A stretch of DNA of 64,000 nt from an uncultured Pelagibacteraceae bacterium (GTDB taxonomy: Bacteria; Pseudomonadota; Alphaproteobacteria; Pelagibacterales; Pelagibacteraceae). Both the position numbers and the translations under genes were made by a program. The first letter of the stretch is position 1; each line of letters begins with the position of its first letter. The notes beneath the pieces were generated by a model. It was not told the DNA's origin. It did not search any database and saw only the letters and a program-made list of their open reading frames with translations. The stretch is taken from positions 15,001 to 79,000 of the forward strand of contig CACMXJ010000001.1 in assembly GCA_902617625.1 (NCBI GenBank), read 5' to 3'. Below are positions 717 to 49,566 of the stretch, piece after piece.

Positions 717-792
717 TGGTGGAGGATAGCGGGATCGAACCGCTGACCTCCTGAATGCAAATCAGGCGCTCTCCCAGCTGAGCTAATCCCCC
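717..792 (-). tRNA. tRNA-Ala (anticodon TGC)
   Basis: The reverse complement folds into a standard 76-nt cloverleaf with encoded CCA. The acceptor begins GGGGGAT, and the anticodon loop TTTGCAT gives anticodon TGC. The D-loop carries G18 G19 and the T-loop is the canonical TTCGATC. It sits in the 16S-23S spacer 12 nt downstream of tRNA-Ile. Its canonical elbow is a useful internal contrast to the odd tRNA-His, tRNA-Phe and tRNA-Thr genes elsewhere in the window. Confidence 0.97.
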
Positions 793-804
793 ATGATCTT
801 TAAT

Positions 805-881
805 TGGTGGGCCGAGAAAGACTCGAACTTTCGACCCCACCCTTATCAAGGGTGTGCTCTAACCAACTGAGCTACCGGCCC
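805..881 (-). tRNA. tRNA-Ile (anticodon GAT)
   Basis: This is a 77-nt cloverleaf on the minus strand: acceptor GGGCCGG, anticodon loop CTTGATAA with anticodon GAT, T-loop TTCGAGT, and encoded CCA. It lies between 16S and tRNA-Ala as in most proteobacterial rRNA operons. D- and T-loops are canonical. Confidence 0.97.
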
Positions 882-5347: not shown

Positions 5348-6420
5348 TAATTCAAAATATTTAAACTCTCTTCTTGTGCTTGGAGAGTTAATGCCTCAAT
5401 CATTTCATCAAATACCTCACCTTCTAAAAATTCATCAAGCTTGTGAAGTGTCAAATTTATTCTATGATCAGTAACTCTTCCTTGTGGAAAATTATAAGTT
5501 CTTATTCTTTCTGATCTATCACCTGAACCAATCTTGCTTTTCCTATCTTTTGATCTCTCATTTTCAATTCTTGACCTTTCGAGCTCATACAATCTAGATC
5601 TTAAAATTTTCATTCCTTTAGCTTTATTTTTGTGTTGAGATTTTTCATCTTGTTGAGAGACAGATATTCCAGTTGGAATATGAGTAATTCTAACAGCACT
5701 ATCAGTTGTATTTACTGATTGACCCCCTGGGCCTCCAGCTCTAAAAACATCAACCCTCAAATCACTTTCATTAATTTTTAAATCAACCTCTTCTGCTTCA
5801 GGCAAGACTGCAACCGTCGCTGCAGATGTATGGACTCTACCCTGTGTTTCAGTATCCGGTACTCGTTGCACTCTATGAACACCACTCTCATATTTTAGAG
5901 TAGAATATATATTATTTCCTTTTATAGAAGCTATTACCTCTTTTAAACCACCAGCCTCACTTCTAGAAATTGAAATTAATTCAAGACTCCATTTTTTTTT
6001 ATTGCTTACTTTTTCATACATTTTAAAAAGATCTGAAGCAAATAAACTAGCTTCTAAACCACCTGTTCCAGCTCTAATTTCAATTATTGCATTTTTTTTA
6101 TCTGCTTCATCTTTAGGTAATAAAAATAACTTCAATTTTTTCTCATTTTTCTCATTTTGATTTTTTAAATCAGCCAATTCTGACTCGGCCATTTTTATCA
6201 TATCTGTGTCAGAGTTTTTATCCTCCAAGATTGTTTGAATTTCTTTTTTATTTTTTTCAAAAGAGATATAGAATTTAGCAATTTTAATTATTTCATTCAG
6301 GTCTGCATATTCTTTAGATTTTTCAGCAAAAGAATTTTTGTCAATTTCTCCTGAGGACAGTTCTTTTTCTAAAAGTGCATGTTTGTTAATTAAATCATTA
6401 ACAGTTTTTAAAGGTATCAT
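5347..6420 (-). CDS. prfA: Peptide chain release factor 1
   Basis: RF1 of 357 residues terminates translation at UAA and UAG. The GGQ tripeptide that triggers peptidyl-tRNA hydrolysis is at 232-234 in [15 protein letters not shown]. The anticodon-like PxT site is PDT (188-190). The absence of RF2-type SPF supports RF1. It overlaps ispG upstream by 4 bp (ATGA) and prmC downstream by 1 bp. Confidence 0.97.
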
Positions 6421-7517
6421 TTCAAATTTTTTAATTCAGACTCTTTTTTTTCAACTTCGCTTACCACTCTATCAATCATGTCATTGGTTAAAACTTTTTC
6501 TGACTGTACCCCAGATAAATAAAGCATATTATTTCCCTTTTTACCTCCAGTTATACCTATATCAGTTTGGGCTGCCTCTCCAGGACCGTTAACCACACAG
6601 CCGATTACAGATAAAGTTATAGGTGTTTTTATATGAGAAAGCTTTTTTTCTAAAATTTTTACAGTTTCAATTACTTCAAAGCCTTGTCTTGCACAAGAAG
6701 GACAGGAAATAATTTTCACTCCCCTTTCTCTTAAACTTAAAGATTTTAGTATTTCATTTCCAATTTTGACTTCCTCAACAGGATTATCTGATAAAGAAAT
6801 TCTAATAGTGTCACCAATACCCTCTAAAAGCAATGTCCCAAGCCCAATTGAAGATTTTATACTTCCTGGAATAAAGCCCCCTGCTTCTGTAATTCCTAAA
6901 TGTAGTGGATAATCTGTAGATTTTGATAATTGTCTGTATGCTTCAATCGACAAAAATACATCTGATGACTTAACGCTTACCTTTAAATTTTGAAAATTTT
7001 CGTCCTCAAGTATTTTGATATTTCTTAAGGCACTTTCAACTAAAGCCTCTGGACAAGGTTCTTTATACTTTTCTAAAATATCTTTCTCTAATGATCCAGC
7101 GTTAACTCCCACTCTAATTGAGCAATTATTATCAACTGCAGCTTTAACAACTTCTTTAATTTTATCTTTATTTCCTATATTCCCAGGATTTATTCTTAGA
7201 CAGCTTGCACCACTTTCAGCAGCCTCAATTGCTCTTTTGTAGTGGAAATGAATATCAGCAACTATAGGTAAATCAACATGTTTAATTATTTCTTTTAATG
7301 CTTTAGATGATGGCTCATCAGGACAAGAAACTCTAACTATATCGGCTCCTTCGGAGCTAATTTCATTTATTTGATTAATTGTAGCTTTTACATCTGTTGT
7401 AAGAGTATTAGTCATTGATTGAACTGATATTGGACTTCCCCCTCCAACTTTCACTTTCCCCACATTAATCTGTTTTGTTTCTCTTCGTTTTATATCTCTA
7501 AAAGGTCTTATACTCAT
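6417..7517 (-). CDS. ispG: 4-hydroxy-3-methylbut-2-enyl diphosphate synthase
   Basis: IspG (GcpE), 366 residues, converts MEcPP to HMBPP in the MEP isoprenoid pathway, using a [4Fe-4S] cluster. Cluster ligands are visible: C272 and C275 in [11 protein letters not shown]307 in [10 protein letters not shown], and E314. The N-terminal TIM-barrel part includes VQSMTNT and [10 protein letters not shown]. Length is that of the short bacterial form. It is coupled by 4-bp overlaps to lysC upstream and prfA downstream. Confidence 0.96.
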
Positions 7518-8734
7518 TTTTTTTGATCTAATTTAAATTCTTTATGTAAGGCAATTAAAGCTTTTTGAGTATTTTTTTTATCAATTAAAACTGAAATTTT
7601 AATCTCAGAAGTAGAAATGACTTTAATATTTATTTTCTTGTTTGCAAGTGTTTGAAACATTCTAAATGTAACTCCTGGAGTAGTTATCATACCTACTCCG
7701 ATCACTGAAATTTTCGATACTCCCTTTTCAAAGAGTAATTTCCTGTAATTAATAATTTTGTTTTGTTGAATAATTTTTTTGGTTTTGCTCAAGTCGTCTG
7801 ATTTAATTGTAAATGTTAAATCTGTTTCTTTCCCATTCGCAGAAATATTTTGTACAACCATATCAACATTTATTAAATTTTTAGATAATGGTTTAAAGAT
7901 CGCTGCAGCAACGCCAGGTTTGTCCTTTACACCTATAAGGGAAACTTTTGAGTCATTTTGAGTTGAGGAAATTCCAGTAACAATTTTATTATTTGCAATC
8001 TTGGATCTTTTGGTAATCAATGTTCCTGATCTTTTTGAAAAAGATGATTTTACTTCGATATCAATCCTATTTAATCTTGCATCTTGTATTGAAACTGGTT
8101 GCATCACTTTTGCACCCAACGATGCCATCTCTAACATTTCCTCATAAGATATTACTTTAATCTTTTTAGCGTTTTTCAATTTGTTAGGATCAGTTGTGTA
8201 CACTCCTTCTACATCAGTATAGATTATACATCTCTCAGCTTTGAAAAACTTAGCAATCATAATTGCACTTGCATCAGATCCACCCCTTCCAATAGTTGTA
8301 ATTCTATTTTCATCATTCAGTCCCTGAAACCCTGTGACTATTGGTATACCACCCTTTTTTAAATATTTTATAATATTGCCTTTATTGATTTGGTTTATTC
8401 TTGAATTTTTATGTTTACCTTTTGTCATAATTGGAATTTGCCAAGATAGCCAAGATCTAGATTCGTACCCCTCATGAATTAATCGTCCAGCTATTAAAGA
8501 ACACGAAATTTGTTCACCTGAAGAAACCAAAACATCATGTTCTGACTCTGAAAAACTATCACTTATTTCAAAAGATTTTTTTATTAATTCATTAGTCACA
8601 CCACTCATGGCTGATGAAACTACGATAACTTTGTGGTTTTTCCTTTTGTAATTAATGATTATTTTAGCAACTTTTTTTATCTTTTTGATAGTACCAACTG
8701 ATGTGCCTCCAAATTTTAATACGACAATTTTCAT
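7514..8734 (-). CDS. lysC: Aspartokinase
   Basis: Aspartate kinase, 406 residues, makes aspartyl phosphate for lysine/DAP, threonine and methionine synthesis. The kinase domain starts with KFGGTSVG (7-14) and contains [11 protein letters not shown] and [11 protein letters not shown]. Two ACT domains follow (about 265-400), as in feedback-regulated enzymes. It is first in the lysC-ispG-prfA-prmC operon and is divergent from ubiG across 68 bp, an arrangement common in alphaproteobacteria. The downstream DAP genes dapD and dapE lie elsewhere in this window. Confidence 0.95.
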
Positions 8735-11366: not shown

Positions 11367-13910
11367 ATGTTAAATCCTCTAAACTTTATTTCTAAATTTA
11401 TCAAATCTGGCAATCAAAAAGAGCTTGATAGAATTAGTAAAATTGTAAAACAAATCTATCTTTTAGAAGAAAATGTCAAAAAACTTAAAGATGAGGACTT
11501 TCCAAGGGAAACTTTAAGATTAAAACAAAAGATTCGCAACGGTTCATCTCTAAATCAAATTTTACCAGAAGCTTTTGCATTAGTACGAGAAGCCTCTCGT
11601 AGAACTAGAGATGAGAGACATTTCGATGTTCAAATGATTGGTGGAGTAGTTTTGCATGAAAGTAAAATAGCGGAAATGAGAACTGGTGAAGGTAAAACTC
11701 TAACTATAGCTTTGGCTGCATATTTAAATTCACTTGAAGAAAAAGGAGTTCATATTGTAACAGTAAATGACTACCTTGCAAAAAGAGACTCGATTGAGAT
11801 GGGGAAGATTTACAACTTTTTGGGTTTATCTTCTGGTTACATAAATAATGATCAAAATGATGTTGAAAGGAAAAAAAATTATAATTGTGATATTACCTAT
11901 GCAACAAACAGTGAACTAGGTTTTGATTATCTAAGAGACAACATGAAATACTCAAAAGATGAAATGGTCCAAAGACAAAATAATTATGCGATTGTAGATG
12001 AAATAGACTCTTGTTTGATTGATGAAGCTAGAACGCCACTAATAATCTCTGGTGCTGCAGAGGATAAAACTAATCAATATCTTGCTATTGATAAAATTGT
12101 GAAATTATTAAATGAAAAAGATTATGAAATTGACGAAAAAGACAAAAATATTCTTTTAACAAATGAGGGTATTAATCATATTGAAAATTTATTTTCAAAT
12201 GCAGGTATATTGAAAAATAATAATTTCTATGATCCTGAAAATTTGGATTTAGTTCATTTTGTAAATCAAGCTTTAAGAGCAAATCATTTATTTAAAAAAG
12301 ACAAAGATTACCTCATTAAAGATAACAGTGTTAAAATCGTAGATGAATTAACCGGTCGAATTCTTGAGGGCAGAAGGTTTGGGGATGGCCTTCATCAAGC
12401 AATAGAAGCCAAAGAGAAAATCGAGATTCAAGCTGAAAATCAAACTTTAGCTTCTATTACTTACCAGAATTATTTTAAACTTTATAAAAAGATATCAGGA
12501 TGCACAGGTACAGCTGCCACAGAGGCGGAGGAGTTTTTTGAAATCTACAATCTGAATGTAGTTGTAATTCCAACTAATAAAAAGATGATCAGGAAAGATT
12601 TCAATGACCAAATTTTTCGAACTGAATTAGAAAAAAATAATGCAATAATAAAAAAAATTAAAGATTGTCACGAAAACAGTCAGCCTCTTTTAGTCTTCAC
12701 ATCAAGTGTGAGTAAATCTGAGATATTTTCAAAATTACTTACGCAGGAAAAAATTAAGCACATTGTACTAAATGCTAAGAATCATGAAAATGAAGCAGAG
12801 ATTATAGCTAATGCTGGTAAAGCCAAATCAGTAATAATTACGACGAGTATTTCTGGTAGAGGTGTAGATATCCAATTAGGAGGAAAAAAAGGATCAATAG
12901 AGGACGATCAACTCAAAAAAAATAAAGATTATATTAAATCTATAGGAGGTTTATTTGTAATTGGAACTGAAAGAATGGAGTCTAGAAGAGTAGACAATCA
13001 AGCAAGAGGAAGATCGGGCAGACAAGGAGATGAGGGAAGCTCTATTTTTTATGTAAGTTTAGAGGATGACCTTATGAGAATTTTTGGATCCGAATCTATG
13101 AACAATATTCTTCAAAAACTTGGCCTCAAAGACGGTGAAAGTATAGATCATCCTTGGATAAATAAAGCCCTAGAGAGAGCACAACAAAAAGTTGAGGCAC
13201 GAAATTTTGATATTAGAAAAACTCTTATAAAGTTTGACAATGTTTTAAATGATCAAAGACAAGTAGTATTTTCTCAAAGAAAAGATGCTATGGATAGTGA
13301 AAAAATTTTTGATTATTCAGATAATTTTTTATCGGAAATAGTGGACAACTTAATAAGCCTAAAAATTCAAAAATTATCAAATCCGAAAAATAATGAGTTT
13401 AAAAATAAATTAAAGGCTATTTTTGGAAAAAGTCTTAACGATAATGAATATGAAGAATTAATTTCTTTAAATGACACAAAATTAAGAGAGAAAATTTTTG
13501 AAAAATTCAAATTTGCTAGAGAAGAGAGATCTAAAATTCTTGGGGAAAAACAATCAAAAGACCTAGAAAAAAGAATTCTTTTACAATCAATTGATTTTAA
13601 TTGGAAATCACACATCCAATACTTAGAGCAATTAAGACAAGTTGTGGGTCTTAGATCATATGGACAAAGAGATCCTCTCATAGAATATAAAAAAGAAGCT
13701 TTTGATTTATTTTCAAATTTACTGGATAAATTAAAACTTGATTATGTAAAAATATTGATGAATCTCAAAGTTTATAATGAACCGACTGAAAAAATAAACC
13801 AAAGCCTATTAAAAGAAAAATTTAAAAACCTTGGTAAAAAAATAAGTAGAAATGATCCTTGTCCGTGTGGATCTGGTAAAAAATTCAAGAAATGTTGTGG
13901 AGCTCTATAG
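11367..13910 (+). CDS. secA: Preprotein translocase ATPase SecA
   Basis: SecA, 847 residues, is the motor of the Sec export pathway. Visible motifs are the Walker A-type MRTGEGKTL (about 103-111), the DEAD-box-like VDEIDSCLIDEARTPL, the helicase motif near GRGVDIQLGG, and QARGRSGRQGD. The C-terminal zinc-binding SecB-interacting motif is present as DPCPCGSGKKFKKCC. Length is slightly short for the family because linker regions are trimmed. Its last 6 bp overlap the convergent accA. Confidence 0.97.
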   Translation: MLNPLNFISKFIKSGNQKELDRISKIVKQIYLLEENVKKLKDEDFPRETLRLKQKIRNGSSLNQILPEAFALVREASRRTRDERHFDVQMIGGVVLHESKIAEMRTGEGKTLTIALAAYLNSLEEKGVHIVTVNDYLAKRDSIEMGKIYNFLGLSSGYINNDQNDVERKKNYNCDITYATNSELGFDYLRDNMKYSKDEMVQRQNNYAIVDEIDSCLIDEARTPLIISGAAEDKTNQYLAIDKIVKLLNEKDYEIDEKDKNILLTNEGINHIENLFSNAGILKNNNFYDPENLDLVHFVNQALRANHLFKKDKDYLIKDNSVKIVDELTGRILEGRRFGDGLHQAIEAKEKIEIQAENQTLASITYQNYFKLYKKISGCTGTAATEAEEFFEIYNLNVVVIPTNKKMIRKDFNDQIFRTELEKNNAIIKKIKDCHENSQPLLVFTSSVSKSEIFSKLLTQEKIKHIVLNAKNHENEAEIIANAGKAKSVIITTSISGRGVDIQLGGKKGSIEDDQLKKNKDYIKSIGGLFVIGTERMESRRVDNQARGRSGRQGDEGSSIFYVSLEDDLMRIFGSESMNNILQKLGLKDGESIDHPWINKALERAQQKVEARNFDIRKTLIKFDNVLNDQRQVVFSQRKDAMDSEKIFDYSDNFLSEIVDNLISLKIQKLSNPKNNEFKNKLKAIFGKSLNDNEYEELISLNDTKLREKIFEKFKFAREERSKILGEKQSKDLEKRILLQSIDFNWKSHIQYLEQLRQVVGLRSYGQRDPLIEYKKEAFDLFSNLLDKLKLDYVKILMNLKVYNEPTEKINQSLLKEKFKNLGKKISRNDPCPCGSGKKFKKCCGAL

Positions 13911-42232: not shown

Positions 42233-43287
42233 AATTGATAATTTAAGTTAAGAGCAGCACCAACAGCTGGTATCTGCTTTTTTGAGCCAAGATCAGAAAT
42301 TAATTTGTCATAACGACCACCATTGCAACAATTAATAATTTTCGACTTTGATTTGATGTCTATTTTAAAAACTATGCCAGTGTAATACTCTAATTGTCTA
42401 CCAAAGGCAGTTGAGAAAACTACATTTAATTTAGATATTTTGTTTTTTGAGATAGGAAAATATTTCTGATCAACAAAAAGATTTATTTTATGTTTTTTAA
42501 AAAATTTATTTAACTCCTCTGCAGCTTTATTTATTGGACATTTAATTTTCAAAAAATCTTTAATGATTTTCGATGTATTACTTCCCTTACTTGCTTTTCT
42601 TGGATCCTTAATCTTTTTATCAAATCTTTCTAAAATTTCTTTTAATGTTCTACCTGCAACAATAGATGATTGATCATCCTTTAACATTTTTAAATATCTT
42701 CTTTTATCAACCTCAACAATAGTTGGATCTACATCAGAATTTGTCTCTAATCTTTTTAATAAATCACTGAAATAGTCTTCTCGCCAAAAATGTCTTGTAA
42801 GTCTTAATTTCCATCTTTTTGGTATATCTAATTTAGATATTAAAAGATTAAAAATTTCCACATTGCCAATAGTAAGAGTACCTGAAGAATATTTTAGATC
42901 TTTAAGTGATTTAAGTGACGTATCTATTATTTCTTTGTCATCTTTTTTTTCATCTTTTGATCCTATAATCTCAAAACCAACCTGATTTCGAATTATAGAG
43001 TCCTTTTTATTTTGAGATTTTCTATAAGCCTGTCCGCTATAAAAAATTTTTTCTTTACCCTTTAAATTGTTTTCTAAATATCGAAGACAGGACACAATGG
43101 TAAGGTCAGGTCTCAAACATAATTCATTACCTTTCTGATCTGTGAATGAAAAAATAAATTTTCTAAAACTTTCACCAGATCTTTGAACTATATGATTAGT
43201 CTCAATAACTGATGGTAATTCAATATATTTAAATCCTTTAGACTGAACTGATCTAAGGATTTTGTTAGATAAATTTTTTGATTTCAT
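42229..43287 (-). CDS. hisZ: ATP phosphoribosyltransferase regulatory subunit HisZ
   Basis: This is a 352-residue paralogue of histidyl-tRNA synthetase. It keeps a motif-2-like stretch (FYSGQAYRKSQN) and a degenerate C-terminal catalytic core (YYTGIVFKID, CNGGRYDKLI), but lacks the anticodon-binding domain. Placement between hisS and hisG and dependence of short HisG on HisZ fix its role as the histidine-sensing subunit. Overlaps hisS by 23 bp. Confidence 0.93.
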   Translation of the reverse strand: MKSKNLSNKILRSVQSKGFKYIELPSVIETNHIVQRSGESFRKFIFSFTDQKGNELCLRPDLTIVSCLRYLENNLKGKEKIFYSGQAYRKSQNKKDSIIRNQVGFEIIGSKDEKKDDKEIIDTSLKSLKDLKYSSGTLTIGNVEIFNLLISKLDIPKRWKLRLTRHFWREDYFSDLLKRLETNSDVDPTIVEVDKRRYLKMLKDDQSSIVAGRTLKEILERFDKKIKDPRKASKGSNTSKIIKDFLKIKCPINKAAEELNKFFKKHKINLFVDQKYFPISKNKISKLNVVFSTAFGRQLEYYTGIVFKIDIKSKSKIINCCNGGRYDKLISDLGSKKQIPAVGAALNLNYQL

Positions 43288-44662
43288 TTATTAAATTTTC
43301 TTTTGGAAATGTAATTTGATTATTCTCTCCTTTAGCCCCAAGTAGATTTTTTAATATTATTTTATTATCTTTAAATTCATTTTCACCGCAGATAACTGCG
43401 ACTGGACATTCTCTTTTGTTAGCATAAGTAAGTTGCTTACCTAGATTTTTTTTACTATCCAAAAATATTTCAGAATTAATATTATTTTTTCTTAAATTGT
43501 CTAAAATTTCGTAATAATTTTTTAAATATTTTTCATCCATTACACAAACAATAACTGGATTTTGTGTGTCAACTTCTACTAGATTTAATTGCATCATTGC
43601 AAATAGCAATCTATCAACACCAATGCTTACACCTGTCCCTGGAATATCTACACCCTTAAATCTTGAAATTAATTTATTATACTGTCCACCTGAGCAGATA
43701 CTTCCAATATCAACTTCCTTGCCTTTAATATTTTTTGCTTTAAAATTCAGATTGGTCTCAACACAAAACCCATCATAATAATCTAGGCCTCTAACTATCG
43801 TAAAATTAGTTTTTACTTGATCAAAGTAATTTCCAAATTTTAAAACTTCAAATAATTCCTCTAATTCTTTAATGCCCTCTTGGGTAATAGGATTTTTAAA
43901 ATTTTCTTTAAGTTCCTTCAAATCCTTAATCTTTAAAAAATTTAAGATTTTAGAAACTTGATCATCACTTAGGTTTGCTCCTTTTGTTATAGCTCCGCTT
44001 TTATCTTTTCTTTCTTTTTTTAATAATTCTTCAACACCCTTTAAACCAAACCCAGGTTTATCGAGTTTGTCTATAGCTCTCATTACTTTGATTTGTTTAC
44101 CTTTTTCAATTTTTAAATCTTCAATTAAACCTTGAACGATTTTTCTATTACTGACATTGATAGTAAACTGATCATTTTTTAAACCACAATCTATCAATGT
44201 ATTTGAGATCAAATTACACAACTCGGCATTAGCTTGGGCTGAATTAACGTTTCCAACTATATCACAATCTGCTTGAGTAAATTCCCTATACCTAGCATTT
44301 CCAGATTTTTCATTTCTGAATACATTTTGAATTGCGTATCTTTTATATATTGAAGGAAGCTCTTGATTATTCTGTGCAACAAATCTAGCAAGTGGACTTG
44401 ATAAATCATATCTTAAAGTAATATTCTTTTCACCATCATCAAATGTAAACACATCAGACATAGGATTATTCTTGTCCTCTGCAAGAAAGGAGCCTATATT
44501 TTCACTAATTTCAAACGATGGTGTTTCTAATGGATCAAATCCATATTTAGTAAAATTTTTCTCAATAACCCTTAATAGTTTTTTTTTGAGAAGTAATTTT
44601 TTATTCCATCTATCTTCAAAACCTGAGGGTAATCCAGGAATTAATTTGTTTTCTTTATTCAT
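43265..44662 (-). CDS. hisS: Histidyl-tRNA synthetase
   Basis: HisRS is taken as 465 residues from the ATG at 44662 (MNKENKLIPGLPSGFEDRW), which matches the alphaproteobacterial N-terminus. An upstream in-frame ATG at 44710 lies inside the tRNA-His gene and is rejected. Motif 2 is RNEKSGNARYREFTQAD, the HisA motif is GLDYYDGFCVE, and a C-terminal anticodon domain follows. The start codon is only 4 nt after the CCA end of tRNA-His, so its ribosome-binding region must lie inside the tRNA sequence unless the transcript is processed or initiated differently. Confidence 0.95.
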   Translation of the reverse strand: MNKENKLIPGLPSGFEDRWNKKLLLKKKLLRVIEKNFTKYGFDPLETPSFEISENIGSFLAEDKNNPMSDVFTFDDGEKNITLRYDLSSPLARFVAQNNQELPSIYKRYAIQNVFRNEKSGNARYREFTQADCDIVGNVNSAQANAELCNLISNTLIDCGLKNDQFTINVSNRKIVQGLIEDLKIEKGKQIKVMRAIDKLDKPGFGLKGVEELLKKERKDKSGAITKGANLSDDQVSKILNFLKIKDLKELKENFKNPITQEGIKELEELFEVLKFGNYFDQVKTNFTIVRGLDYYDGFCVETNLNFKAKNIKGKEVDIGSICSGGQYNKLISRFKGVDIPGTGVSIGVDRLLFAMMQLNLVEVDTQNPVIVCVMDEKYLKNYYEILDNLRKNNINSEIFLDSKKNLGKQLTYANKRECPVAVICGENEFKDNKIILKNLLGAKGENNQITFPKENLINEIKKFI

Positions 44663-44666
44663 TTTT

Positions 44667-44740
44667 TGGTACCTTGAGTAGGTTACGCTCCTACGACTTC
44701 GGATCCACAAACCGACGTGATACTATTTCACCATCAAGGC
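44667..44740 (-). tRNA. tRNA-His (anticodon GTG) with non-canonical elbow
   Basis: The minus strand folds into a 74-nt cloverleaf with correct arm lengths: acceptor GCCTTGA with TCAAGGT, D stem GTGA/TCAC, anticodon loop TTGTGGA (anticodon GTG), T stem GTAGG/CCTAC, A73 and encoded CCA. The D-loop is AATAGTA (A18 G19, not G18 G19) and the T-loop is AGCGTAA (not TTCRANN). The encoded -1 base is T, not G, and the discriminator is A. This is the alphaproteobacterial type lacking G-1. The anticodon stem has a T-T mismatch at 31-39. It directly precedes hisS. Confidence 0.8.
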
Positions 44741-44809
44741 ATATCCTTTTTTGTTTTATCTTATTTTGTTGATATTTAAAATTATAATATATGAGATTAT
44801 TCGCTAGCT

Positions 44810-44911
44810 TTAGCCAGCATGGAAATGAGCGTGCACACCTCTATTAGTTCCTCTAAAAGTAGGTCTTAGAGTACCCGAGCTTATTCTGTAATTAATTTCT
44901 TTTTTATTCAT
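44810..44911 (-). CDS. Putative 33-codon leader ORF with a His-rich end
   Basis: A minus-strand ORF of 33 codons starts MNKKEINYRISSG and ends HAHFHAG. Three His codons thus occur in five positions just before the stop. The stop codon lies in the loop of a 6-bp hairpin (44803-44818). It follows the csp terminator and precedes tRNA-His-hisS-hisZ-hisG. The segment is visibly richer in G and C than its flanks. There is no clear Shine-Dalgarno sequence, and the hairpin has no U-run, so a histidine leader peptide is a hypothesis. It could also be part of a structured RNA. Confidence 0.35.
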   Translation of the reverse strand: MNKKEINYRISSGTLRPTFRGTNRGVHAHFHAG

Positions 44912-44948
44912 GGACGGCGTTTTAGACAAAAATAGAAATTATTCAACC

Positions 44949-44992
44949 CTAAAAAGAAAAGGACGATTTCTTATTTCTAAGAAAACGCCCTT
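44949..44992 (-). terminator. Rho-independent terminator after csp
   Basis: On the minus strand AAGGGCG and CGTCCTT close a long stem that continues with TTTCTTA pairing to TAAGAAA around a GAAA loop. It is followed by a U-rich run (TTTTCTTTTT). It lies just after the csp stop codon. It is the clearest intrinsic terminator in the window. Confidence 0.8.
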
Positions 44993-45006
44993 GTAAAATA
45001 TTTTTA

Positions 45007-45219
45007 TTAATCTAATTTTTTTAAATTTACTGCGGAAGGACCTTTTGGACCATCTTCTAATGTAAATTCTAGTTTGTCTCCTTCATTTAGAAATCTCATT
45101 CCAGCAGCTTTTACAGCGCTAGCATGAACAAAAGCGTCTTTTTCCTTATCGTCTCTTTCTATGAAACCATAGCCTTTTTTACCATTAAACCATTTAACTT
45201 TTCCTTGAATTGTACTCAT
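45007..45219 (-). CDS. Cold-shock family RNA-binding protein
   Basis: This 70-residue CspA-type OB-fold protein contains RNP1-like GYGFIERDD and RNP2-like DAFVHASAV. It binds single-stranded RNA/DNA and may act as an RNA chaperone. An AAAGGACG Shine-Dalgarno-like run precedes the start, and a strong terminator follows. It is a single-gene unit between tRNA-Phe and the tRNA-His region. Confidence 0.95.
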
Positions 45220-45294
45220 CTTTTTACTCGTCCTTTTGTTATTTATTTAAAATAGAAGTTAATTTCTTTGTATATTAATTTCAAGATGTTTTGA

Positions 45295-45369
45295 TGGTGC
45301 CTCGGGAAGGATTCGCACCTCCGACACAAGCCTTTTCAGGGCTCTGCTCTACTCCTGAGCTACCGAGGC
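45295..45369 (-). tRNA. tRNA-Phe (anticodon GAA) with non-canonical elbow
   Basis: This 75-nt cloverleaf is on the minus strand: acceptor GCCTCGG/CCGAGGC, A73, encoded CCA, and anticodon loop CTGAAAA (anticodon GAA). The D-loop is AGGAGTA, which aligns best as A14 G15 G16 A18 G19 T20 A21. The T-loop is TGCGAAT, with G55 instead of T55. The A18/G55 combination is the same as in tRNA-His. It starts 6 nt after the infA stop and is probably transcribed with infA. Confidence 0.92.
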
Positions 45370-45375
45370 AATAAA

Positions 45376-45591
45376 TTAACCCCTAAAGATTATTCTGCCT
45401 TTAGTAAGGTCATAAGGTGTCATTTCTACAGTCACACTATCACCTTGCAATACTCGAATTCTGTTTTTTCTTAATTTGCCTGCCGTGTGTGCAGTTACTA
45501 CATGACCATTCTCAAGTTGAACTCTAAACATGGCATTAGGCAATAAGTCAGTCACTTTACCTTTAAATTCAAGTAAGTCTTGTTTTGACAA
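45376..45591 (-). CDS. infA: Translation initiation factor IF-1
   Basis: IF-1, 71 residues, is a single S1/OB-fold protein. It has [34 protein letters not shown] and the C-terminal [10 protein letters not shown], all typical. It lies 2 bp after hisD and is followed by tRNA-Phe. The murA-DUF2948-hisD-infA order is an alphaproteobacterial arrangement. Confidence 0.97.
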
Positions 45592-49492: not shown

Positions 49493-49566
49493 GCTCCTGT
49501 AGTTAAATGGCATAACAAGTCCTTGGTAAGGACTAGTTCCCTGGTCAGTACAGGGTGGGAGCACCA
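49493..49566 (+). tRNA. tRNA-Thr (anticodon GGT) with unusual T-loop
   Basis: This 74-nt cloverleaf is on the plus strand: acceptor GCTCCTG/TGGGAGC, D stem GTTA/TAAC, anticodon loop TTGGTAA (anticodon GGT), T stem CCCTG/CAGGG, A73 and encoded CCA. The D-loop AATGGCA keeps G18 G19. The T-loop is GTCAGTA, so the T54-A58 pair is replaced by G54 and G58 while T55 and C56 remain. It ends exactly where the stop codon of the convergent VTT-domain gene begins. Confidence 0.93.

Follow-up and report, generated by a model that had tools for sequence, protein, structure and literature searches.

The genes for tRNA-His and tRNA-Phe in the DNA analysed here, a stretch of 64,000 nucleotides (the window) from an uncultured Pelagibacteraceae bacterium, carry A18 and G55, with G19 and C56 retained, according to both the Rfam alignment and a structural parser. 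The 18-55 contact is customarily presented as universal among tRNAs. Read across gene sequences, positions 18 and 55 change as a unit, repeatedly and in several isotypes, in bacteria, DPANN archaea and viral contigs, with C56 and the stems staying as they are. The best overall explanation, which we consider likely, is that these are working tRNAs whose elbow would be held by A18/G55 instead of by G18 with U or pseudouridine-55. That the joint change at the two positions reflects compensation is, from the pattern of sequences, very probable. The features in the window are:

44667..44740, minus strand: tRNA-His (anticodon GTG) with encoded CCA; Rfam 50.6 bits, structural parser, sequence
44721..44727, minus strand: D-loop AATAGTA of tRNA-His; A18 at 44724, G19 at 44723
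44683..44689, minus strand: T-loop AGCGTAA of tRNA-His; A54 at 44689, G55 at 44688, C56 at 44687, U58 at 44685
45295..45369, minus strand: tRNA-Phe (anticodon GAA) with encoded CCA; ARAGORN, Rfam 62.6 bits, structural parser
45350..45356, minus strand: D-loop AGGAGTA of tRNA-Phe; A18 at 45353, G19 at 45352
45311..45317, minus strand: T-loop TGCGAAT of tRNA-Phe; G55 at 45316, C56 at 45315
43265..44662, minus strand: hisS, histidine-tRNA ligase; TIGR00442, 351.3 bits, above cut-off
45007..45219, minus strand: cold-shock domain gene between tRNA-Phe and tRNA-His; CspE/CspA models, all under curated cut-offs
45376..45591, minus strand: infA, IF-1; TIGR00008, 111.3 bits; anchor for fetching the locus elsewhere
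717..881, minus strand: tRNA-Ala (717-792) and tRNA-Ile (805-881) of the rRNA operon; canonical G18/T55 controls
49493..49566, plus strand: tRNA-Thr(GGT) with T-loop GTCAGTA; G18/T55 kept, G54/G58 replacing T54/A58

The minus-strand order is infA, tRNA-Phe, cold-shock gene, tRNA-His, hisS; hisS starts 4 bases past the tRNA-His CCA and provided a locus anchor for comparison across genomes. Rfam model RF00005 spans 44740-44670 (-) for tRNA-His and 45369-45298 (-) for tRNA-Phe, the encoded CCA coming next in both genes. Both fold as cloverleaves with 7/4/5/5 pairs, a 7-base anticodon loop and CCA, tRNA-His with one U-U mismatch at 31-39. T54/A58 is kept in tRNA-Phe, where G55-C56-G57-A58 is a GNRA sequence; tRNA-His has A54/U58 instead. 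tRNA-His also has A73 and a T at -1, hence no encoded G-1, as is typical of alphaproteobacterial (RRCH-type) tRNA-His. ARAGORN missed this gene, although it is the sole tRNA-His found in the genome; for strains like this one, automatic annotation may list tRNA-His as lacking. The tRNA-Thr(GGT) gene at 49493-49566 (+) is a case of a purine-purine 54-58 pair occurring in nature.

The genome is a 1.03-Mb assembly, 92.6% complete, with 26 tRNAs by Rfam, all 26 of which were parsed. Three of these (His, Phe and Val(GAC)) are A18/G55 and the other 23 are G18/T55. Both loops of tRNA-Val(GAC), which lies outside the window, are identical to those of tRNA-His, including A54/U58. Compared with bacterial elongator tRNAs in general, G19-C56 is present, and G18 with T/pseudouridine-55 is missing from His, Phe and Val(GAC); T54-A58 is present in Phe and missing from His and Val. 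Of the two things that make a TruB substrate, U55 and a TruB in the cell, neither was found for these three tRNAs.

Our parser demands C56, T33, seven-base T- and anticodon loops and near-full stems, leaving other tRNAs uncounted, and position 18 was scored by which D-loop readings are possible. Rfam tRNAs went unparsed in G009 (2/33), G015 (1/32) and G038 (4/28, with 4 of 64 planned regions left out), and inspection by eye removed a false tRNA from each of G001, G015 and L584.

The initial annotation of the window had assigned A18/G55 with G19/C56 to tRNA-His and tRNA-Phe, with the loops listed above, and had called the tRNA-Ala and tRNA-Ile of the rRNA operon normal. The Rfam alignment and the parser bear out the first reading, and both rRNA-operon genes are G18/T55. 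It had added that TruB could make pseudouridine-55 in neither tRNA, which agrees with G55; moreover, our search of the genome revealed no TruB at all. Its "two independent tRNAs" was too modest, as the change affects three isotypes here and takes several forms across the order. It had also weighed the possibility of extra canonical tRNA-His and tRNA-Phe genes, and no second gene for either was found among the 26 tRNAs of this 92.6% complete genome.

We examined the same loci across Pelagibacterales. The infA anchor was present in 134 of the 147 genomes of the order, and 70 of those places were fetched; a BLAST search with tRNA-His had matches in 27 of the 147 genomes and led to 9 further loci, for a total of 79. 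At these loci tRNA-His was A18/G55 (A/G) in 16 cases and G18/T55 (G/T) in 52 (n=68), and tRNA-Phe was A/G in 44 and G/T in 30 (n=74), with none mixed for either isotype. A tree of the 79 loci was built on IF-1, cold-shock and HisS N-terminal sequence, three short genes with over a dozen rows having less than half of the columns. This tree requires at least 10 state changes at His and 7 at Phe, and a single-base change never occurred. Among independent pairs at well-supported branches, 18 and 55 shifted in the same direction in 5/5 for His (sign test p 0.06) and 6/6 for Phe (sign test p 0.03). The two positions thus changed jointly and repeatedly on the tree, as expected of a compensatory tertiary pair.

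Close relatives differ in having an A/G or a canonical tRNA-His, and several strains share identical A/G genes. Because identical A/G tRNA-His genes sit amid canonical close relatives, some state changes at the His locus probably reflect allele exchange between strains rather than fresh mutation. The tRNA-Val(GAC) genes of our genome, G005 and G015 are identical, and those of G001 (with TruB) and G038 (without) are canonical; in G015, 30/31 parsed tRNAs are G18/T55. Beside infA, very different canonical tRNAs (GGGACTG... and GGGCCTT...) replace tRNA-Phe in L072 (same gene as in L042) and L093, apparently as foreign genes.

Covariation of 18 with 55 across SAR11 loci had been proposed as a check by the initial annotation, and it was found: among the distinct tRNAs that we read in the order, which are related sequences, G55 came with A18 in 19/19 and T55 with G18 in 149/149, with 0 mixed. 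Canonical genes at these loci in other SAR11 genomes had been held to speak against compensation. Such relatives exist, yet they leave compensation standing because they are canonical at both 18 and 55. The preference for compensation over decay was likewise upheld on three counts: the His, Phe and Val genes examined across the order all have 18 and 55 jointly canonical or jointly changed, our search of the genome turned up no further tRNA for His or Phe, and compensatory changes are present in the stems. In ten A/G tRNA-Phe sequences, 210/210 stem cells are paired (100%), and 13/21 pairs have both partners altered in one or more of the sequences. Among six A/G tRNA-His sequences, compensation is seen at 3 acceptor pairs, and one U-U mismatch is constant.

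An in-place double change is seen in the tRNA-His of G001 (L111), which has loops AGTTAGTTA/TGCAACT and is A/G. Outside the loops it is 0.81-0.86 identical to canonical tRNA-His of TruB-bearing genera (AGTTGGTTA, TTC loops). G001 is rated 100% complete, and this A/G gene is its sole tRNA-His among 32 tRNAs. Identity outside the loops to the nearest canonical SAR11 tRNA of the same isotype is at most 0.85 for the His of L050, 0.75-0.85 for Phe and 0.75 for the window's His. By sequence the A/G His genes fall into four forms (the AGCGTAA/GGCAGAA clade, L050, L111 and L109) and the Phe genes into one or two, whereas Val has a single form. The A18/G55 tRNA-His of L109 (AATAGTA/AGCATAA) stands apart, with a best identity of 0.58 among 1023 compared tRNAs and no near relative.

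Positions 54, 58 and 60 appear from the sequences to form a second linked set, commoner with G55. T54/A58 is missing from 41 of 242 distinct G55 tRNAs (A54/U58 in 16, G54/G58 in 15, others in 10) and from 16 of 727 T55 tRNAs. We regard the three positions as linked because A60 goes with the 54/58 alternatives in G55 and T55 tRNAs alike: it occurs with them in 34/41 G55 and 12/16 T55 tRNAs, and with T54/A58 in 9/201 G55 and 11/711 T55 tRNAs (related sequences counted). Thus A54/U58 and G54/G58 mostly come with A60, and T54/A58 mostly with a non-A at 60.

Presence of TruB was scored with model TIGR00431 in the 147 genomes of the order. It was found in 49, comprising 7/7 genomes of g2-g4 and 42/53 of family f2, many of these incomplete; this model found it in 0/87 genomes of g1 (the genus of our genome), g5 and g6. 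There are 76 genomes in g1, among them seven of one contig rated 99-100%. In a sample of the class, 56 of 57 alphaproteobacteria had TruB, the sole exception being our genome. Synteny was read at three rpsO loci, out of seven fetched, including this one:

L565, C1 near 143111-143347: truB-less rbfA/rpsO junction of our genome; companion loci L563 and L564

G001 has rbfA-truB-rpsO, and our genome and G026 have rbfA followed directly by rpsO; the profiles name RbfA and TruB in G001, and RbfA and S15 in our genome. truB has been cleanly lost between rbfA and rpsO in our genome and G026.

Among His and Phe genes, 59/121 were A/G in genera without TruB and 1/21 in TruB genera, counts that are not independent. 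Outside SAR11, 25 of 50 genomes with A/G tRNAs had a TruB match, 21 of them above cut-off. TruB loss as the entire cause was therefore rejected: A/G occurs with TruB (in G001 and in these 25 genomes), and most tRNAs are canonical in its absence. TruB loss is neither necessary nor sufficient for A18/G55. Because half of the outside A/G genomes have a TruB match, it favours the swap at most, and we are evenly divided over whether it acted as a permissive factor. Loss of m5U54 through TrmFO was tried as a co-factor and rejected. None of the 147 genomes of the order reached the TrmFO cut-off, and 135 weak matches, nearly all at profile positions ∼277–387 in frames of ∼626 residues, were taken for MnmG. 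Since the failure to reach the cut-off is common to genera with and without TruB, TrmFO cannot separate them.

The state is found well beyond SAR11. A two-arm A18/G55 motif was present in 96 stretches of IMG/VR; the same motif written as G18/G55 matched 1 stretch, as A18/T55 13 stretches and in canonical form at least 120. Of the 13 A18/T55 stretches, 7 are G18-G19 in a longer D-loop, 1 is clear (L345, Pro) and 5 are of doubtful register (L338, L341, L343, L346 and L347). In GTDB genomes a stricter A18/G55 motif matched at least 112 stretches. The 80 loci listed among these include Omnitrophota (Phe), Patescibacteria (Phe, Thr) and Mycoplasmataceae (Phe), Micrarchaeota and other DPANN archaea (mostly Ala), and tRNA arrays in Verrucomicrobia and Planctomycetota bins.

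These viral and cellular sets were collected by the motif itself, and counts without the motif-fitting tRNAs were made separately. Distinct viral G55 tRNAs, including those of three phage arrays, were readable as A18-G19 in 129/129 cases and alternatively as G18-G19 in 12/129; for cellular ones, among the matches listed, the counts were 112/116 and 5/116. T55 tRNAs had G18-G19 in 189/190 viral cases and, among the matches listed, 81/86 cellular cases. With motif-fitting tRNAs excluded, G55 was readable with A18 in 77/77 viral and 37/40 cellular tRNAs (again among the matches listed). Viral loci found with the canonical motif had G55 in 4/422 tRNAs, all 4 reading A18. Third states outside the order are the G18/G55 Asn of L225 and the C18/G55 Lys of L226, and G55 without A18 is further seen in the Ala of L236 (CAACGGA) and the Leu of L231 (AATGCAG).

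Three uncultured phage contigs in IMG/VR (L582, L583 and L584) have 34, 32 and 31 tRNAs, and A18/G55 was found in 29/29, 24/26 and 24/29 of the tRNAs parsed (77/84 in sum). Unparsed Rfam tRNAs in these stretches numbered 5/34, 5/31 and 2/31, one of the second phage's 32 falling outside the parsed stretch. The recoded tRNAs cover nearly all isotypes and keep the traits proper to each (Pro, Leu with its long arm, His, Glu); with a shifted register, 12 of the 77 are alternatively readable as G18-G19. Seven tRNAs depart from the pattern, namely four Met, two Leu(TAA) and one Asn; in L583 and L584, genes for Met and Leu(TAA) retain G18/T55. A scan of 20 mechanically picked reading frames beside the arrays revealed no nuclease and no enzyme that reads the elbow; 14 of the frames were without a PHROG family and the others fell in replication, nucleotidase, HNH and RNA-binding families. 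Near the tRNA array of L584, at 6223-7893 and 12308-12961, are a frame of "RNA-binding protein" family phrog_850 and HNH endonucleases. Among cultured phages none with a recoded set was found, 49/49 parsed tRNAs being T55 in stretches of six named phages. One gene within the phage tRNA array of L589 (Bacteriophage DSS3_MAL1), at 1806-1879, is annotated as tRNA-Pyl.

How might such an elbow hold? In one account, pseudouridine-55 is termed universally conserved and forms a single-bond pair with G18; the T-loop adopts a U-turn, and residue 18 slots in between its fourth and fifth bases (PMC4810234). We propose that A18 would stack between 57 and 58 where G18 normally does, facing the Watson-Crick edge of G55. 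Apart from U, a turn of the U-turn kind can be started by G, as in GNRA loops, and G55 would turn the T-loop sharply, like the first G of such a loop; G55-C56-R57-A58 is GNRA whenever 58 is A. Among 1114 tRNAs (C56 being required by the parser), position 55 was C in 3 and A in 0, and G at 55, hardly ever A or C, would be expected because G55 would turn as in a GNRA loop. A purine at 55 would suit A over G at position 18. This geometry for an A18-G55 pair might hold or fail with about equal chance. The elbow so formed would work without pseudouridine. With truB deleted in the Pelagibacter lineage, pseudouridine-55 would be gone and the advantage of U55 lost, so that the swap would be nearly free and hence frequent in that lineage; it also seems to move between strains as an allele.

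The ARAGORN miss and the low Rfam score (50.6 bits) of tRNA-His might suggest decay, the His and Phe genes being defective or surplus and their loop changes noise. However, no second tRNA for His or Phe was found among the 26 of a 92.6% complete genome, G001, rated 100% complete, has no tRNA-His besides its A/G gene, the stems are paired with compensatory changes, and 18 and 55 are never out of step in the order. Decay is very improbable on this sequence record and may be considered excluded for practical purposes. A wrong register or an assembly error, with a misread D-loop and ordinary bases at the real 18 and 55, is scarcely conceivable. D-loops are indeed ambiguous in some tRNAs, as in the 12 viral G55 cases noted above, but none of the 19 SAR11 G55 tRNAs is readable as G18-G19, the change from T55 to G55 is independent of any register, and the same genes recur in many separate assemblies, including the single-contig G003 and G005.

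Acquisition of the SAR11 A/G genes from phages, some of which have this elbow, is suggested by shared loops, since in addition to the 96 viral stretches with the motif, viral tRNA-Val(TAC) genes (L129, L196 and L205) have AATAGTA/AGCGTAA and variable loop GGGTA, like SAR11 tRNA-Val(GAC). A viral tRNA-Phe (L417) is also slightly nearer outside the loops than canonical SAR11 Phe to our own tRNA-Phe (0.83 versus 0.81) and to that of L071 (0.81 versus 0.76), but it is itself canonical G18/T55. The His forms (except L109) and the other Phe forms are nearest to canonical SAR11 tRNAs of the same isotype (0.71-0.86, with one viral tie). Searches of named phages returned nothing for Val and nothing for His at E 0.001; 18 matched Phe, and in the two fetched 10/10 parsed tRNAs were canonical, the matched gene being parsed in one. 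Identity outside the loops and the named-phage searches thus largely rule out a phage origin, except for Val (best identity 0.71, to a Lys) and the L109 His (0.58), and as a general account we find it quite improbable. Somewhat less improbable, though still unlikely, is selection: a nuclease, modification enzyme or decay pathway would read G18-pseudouridine-55 and A18/G55 would escape it, phages being the main case and SAR11 a by-case. The three phage arrays, recoded across isotypes, fit this, as does the rarity of the state elsewhere in viral contigs (the 4/422 above). Against it, the 20 frames scanned beside the arrays yielded no nuclease or elbow reader, 12 of the 77 recoded tRNAs have the alternative reading, and duplication from one ancestral tRNA could equally spread the state. 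Working tRNAs with a compensated A18/G55 elbow remain our preferred reading. As a tentative extension, which we would not expect to hold in full, A18-G55 could be a second, general elbow solution without pseudouridine-55; the tRNA sets of some large phages, nearly all recoded, would form a parallel pool beyond enzymes and nucleases that read G18-pseudouridine-55, and TruB loss in Pelagibacter would be the cellular counterpart.

Two tRNAs that are indispensable to this bacterium appear to keep their bend with an A-G pair where a G-U pair was long considered universal. As the same two-base swap is seen in other microbes and in almost complete tRNA sets of some viruses, the fold seems to be achievable in a second way. 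A repeated natural double swap offers a clean test of the duties of the 18-55 contact, which, to go by the title of a 2006 study by Pan et al. (cited in PMC4810234), has reportedly been tied to ribosomal translocation, of the purpose of pseudouridine-55, and of the reason for which some phages bring their own tRNAs. Pelagibacter is very abundant in surface ocean water, and with truB deleted in it, the relation of modification loss to elbow identity becomes testable in nature. Design of orthogonal tRNAs could gain a second elbow. The tRNA-His missed by ARAGORN illustrates that a real tRNA can escape a tRNA finder.

We found no naming of A18/G55 in tRNA among the open-access papers listed in our literature searches; within that scope, we consider it a new natural variant. 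These tRNAs share with the canonical elbow (G18-pseudouridine-55, G19-C56, T54-A58) the cloverleaf, G19/C56, G53-C61, R57, CCA and the position and spacing of the loops, and differ in that 18-55 is A-G. Zagryadskaya, Doyon and Steinberg reportedly selected, in 2003, T-loops with G54-A58 or G54-G58 in suppressor tRNAs, work that is said to have concerned the 54-58 pair. Natural counterparts with G54/G58 are the window's tRNA-Thr(GGT) and the tRNA-His of L042 and L043. U55-G18 is described as conserved in an article whose main text has no "G55" (PMC7912444). The absence of G-1 and the A73 described for alphaproteobacterial tRNA-His are both traits of the window's tRNA-His, and the elbow change is separate from them, the main text of that source having neither "T-loop" nor "D-loop" (PMC3937112). 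The 15-48 and A54-A58 pairs of eukaryotic tRNA-Ala are likewise natural tertiary variants near the elbow recognized by gene comparison, but at other positions and in eukaryotes only, in a main text without "A18" or "18-55" (PMC7566577). tRNA-Pyl and metazoan mitochondrial tRNAs, as far as the source text describes them, also depart from G18/pseudouridine-55 (PMC7609411); in those, G19/C56 and the loops are lost or shortened, whereas here only 18-55, and in some tRNAs 54-58, is swapped.
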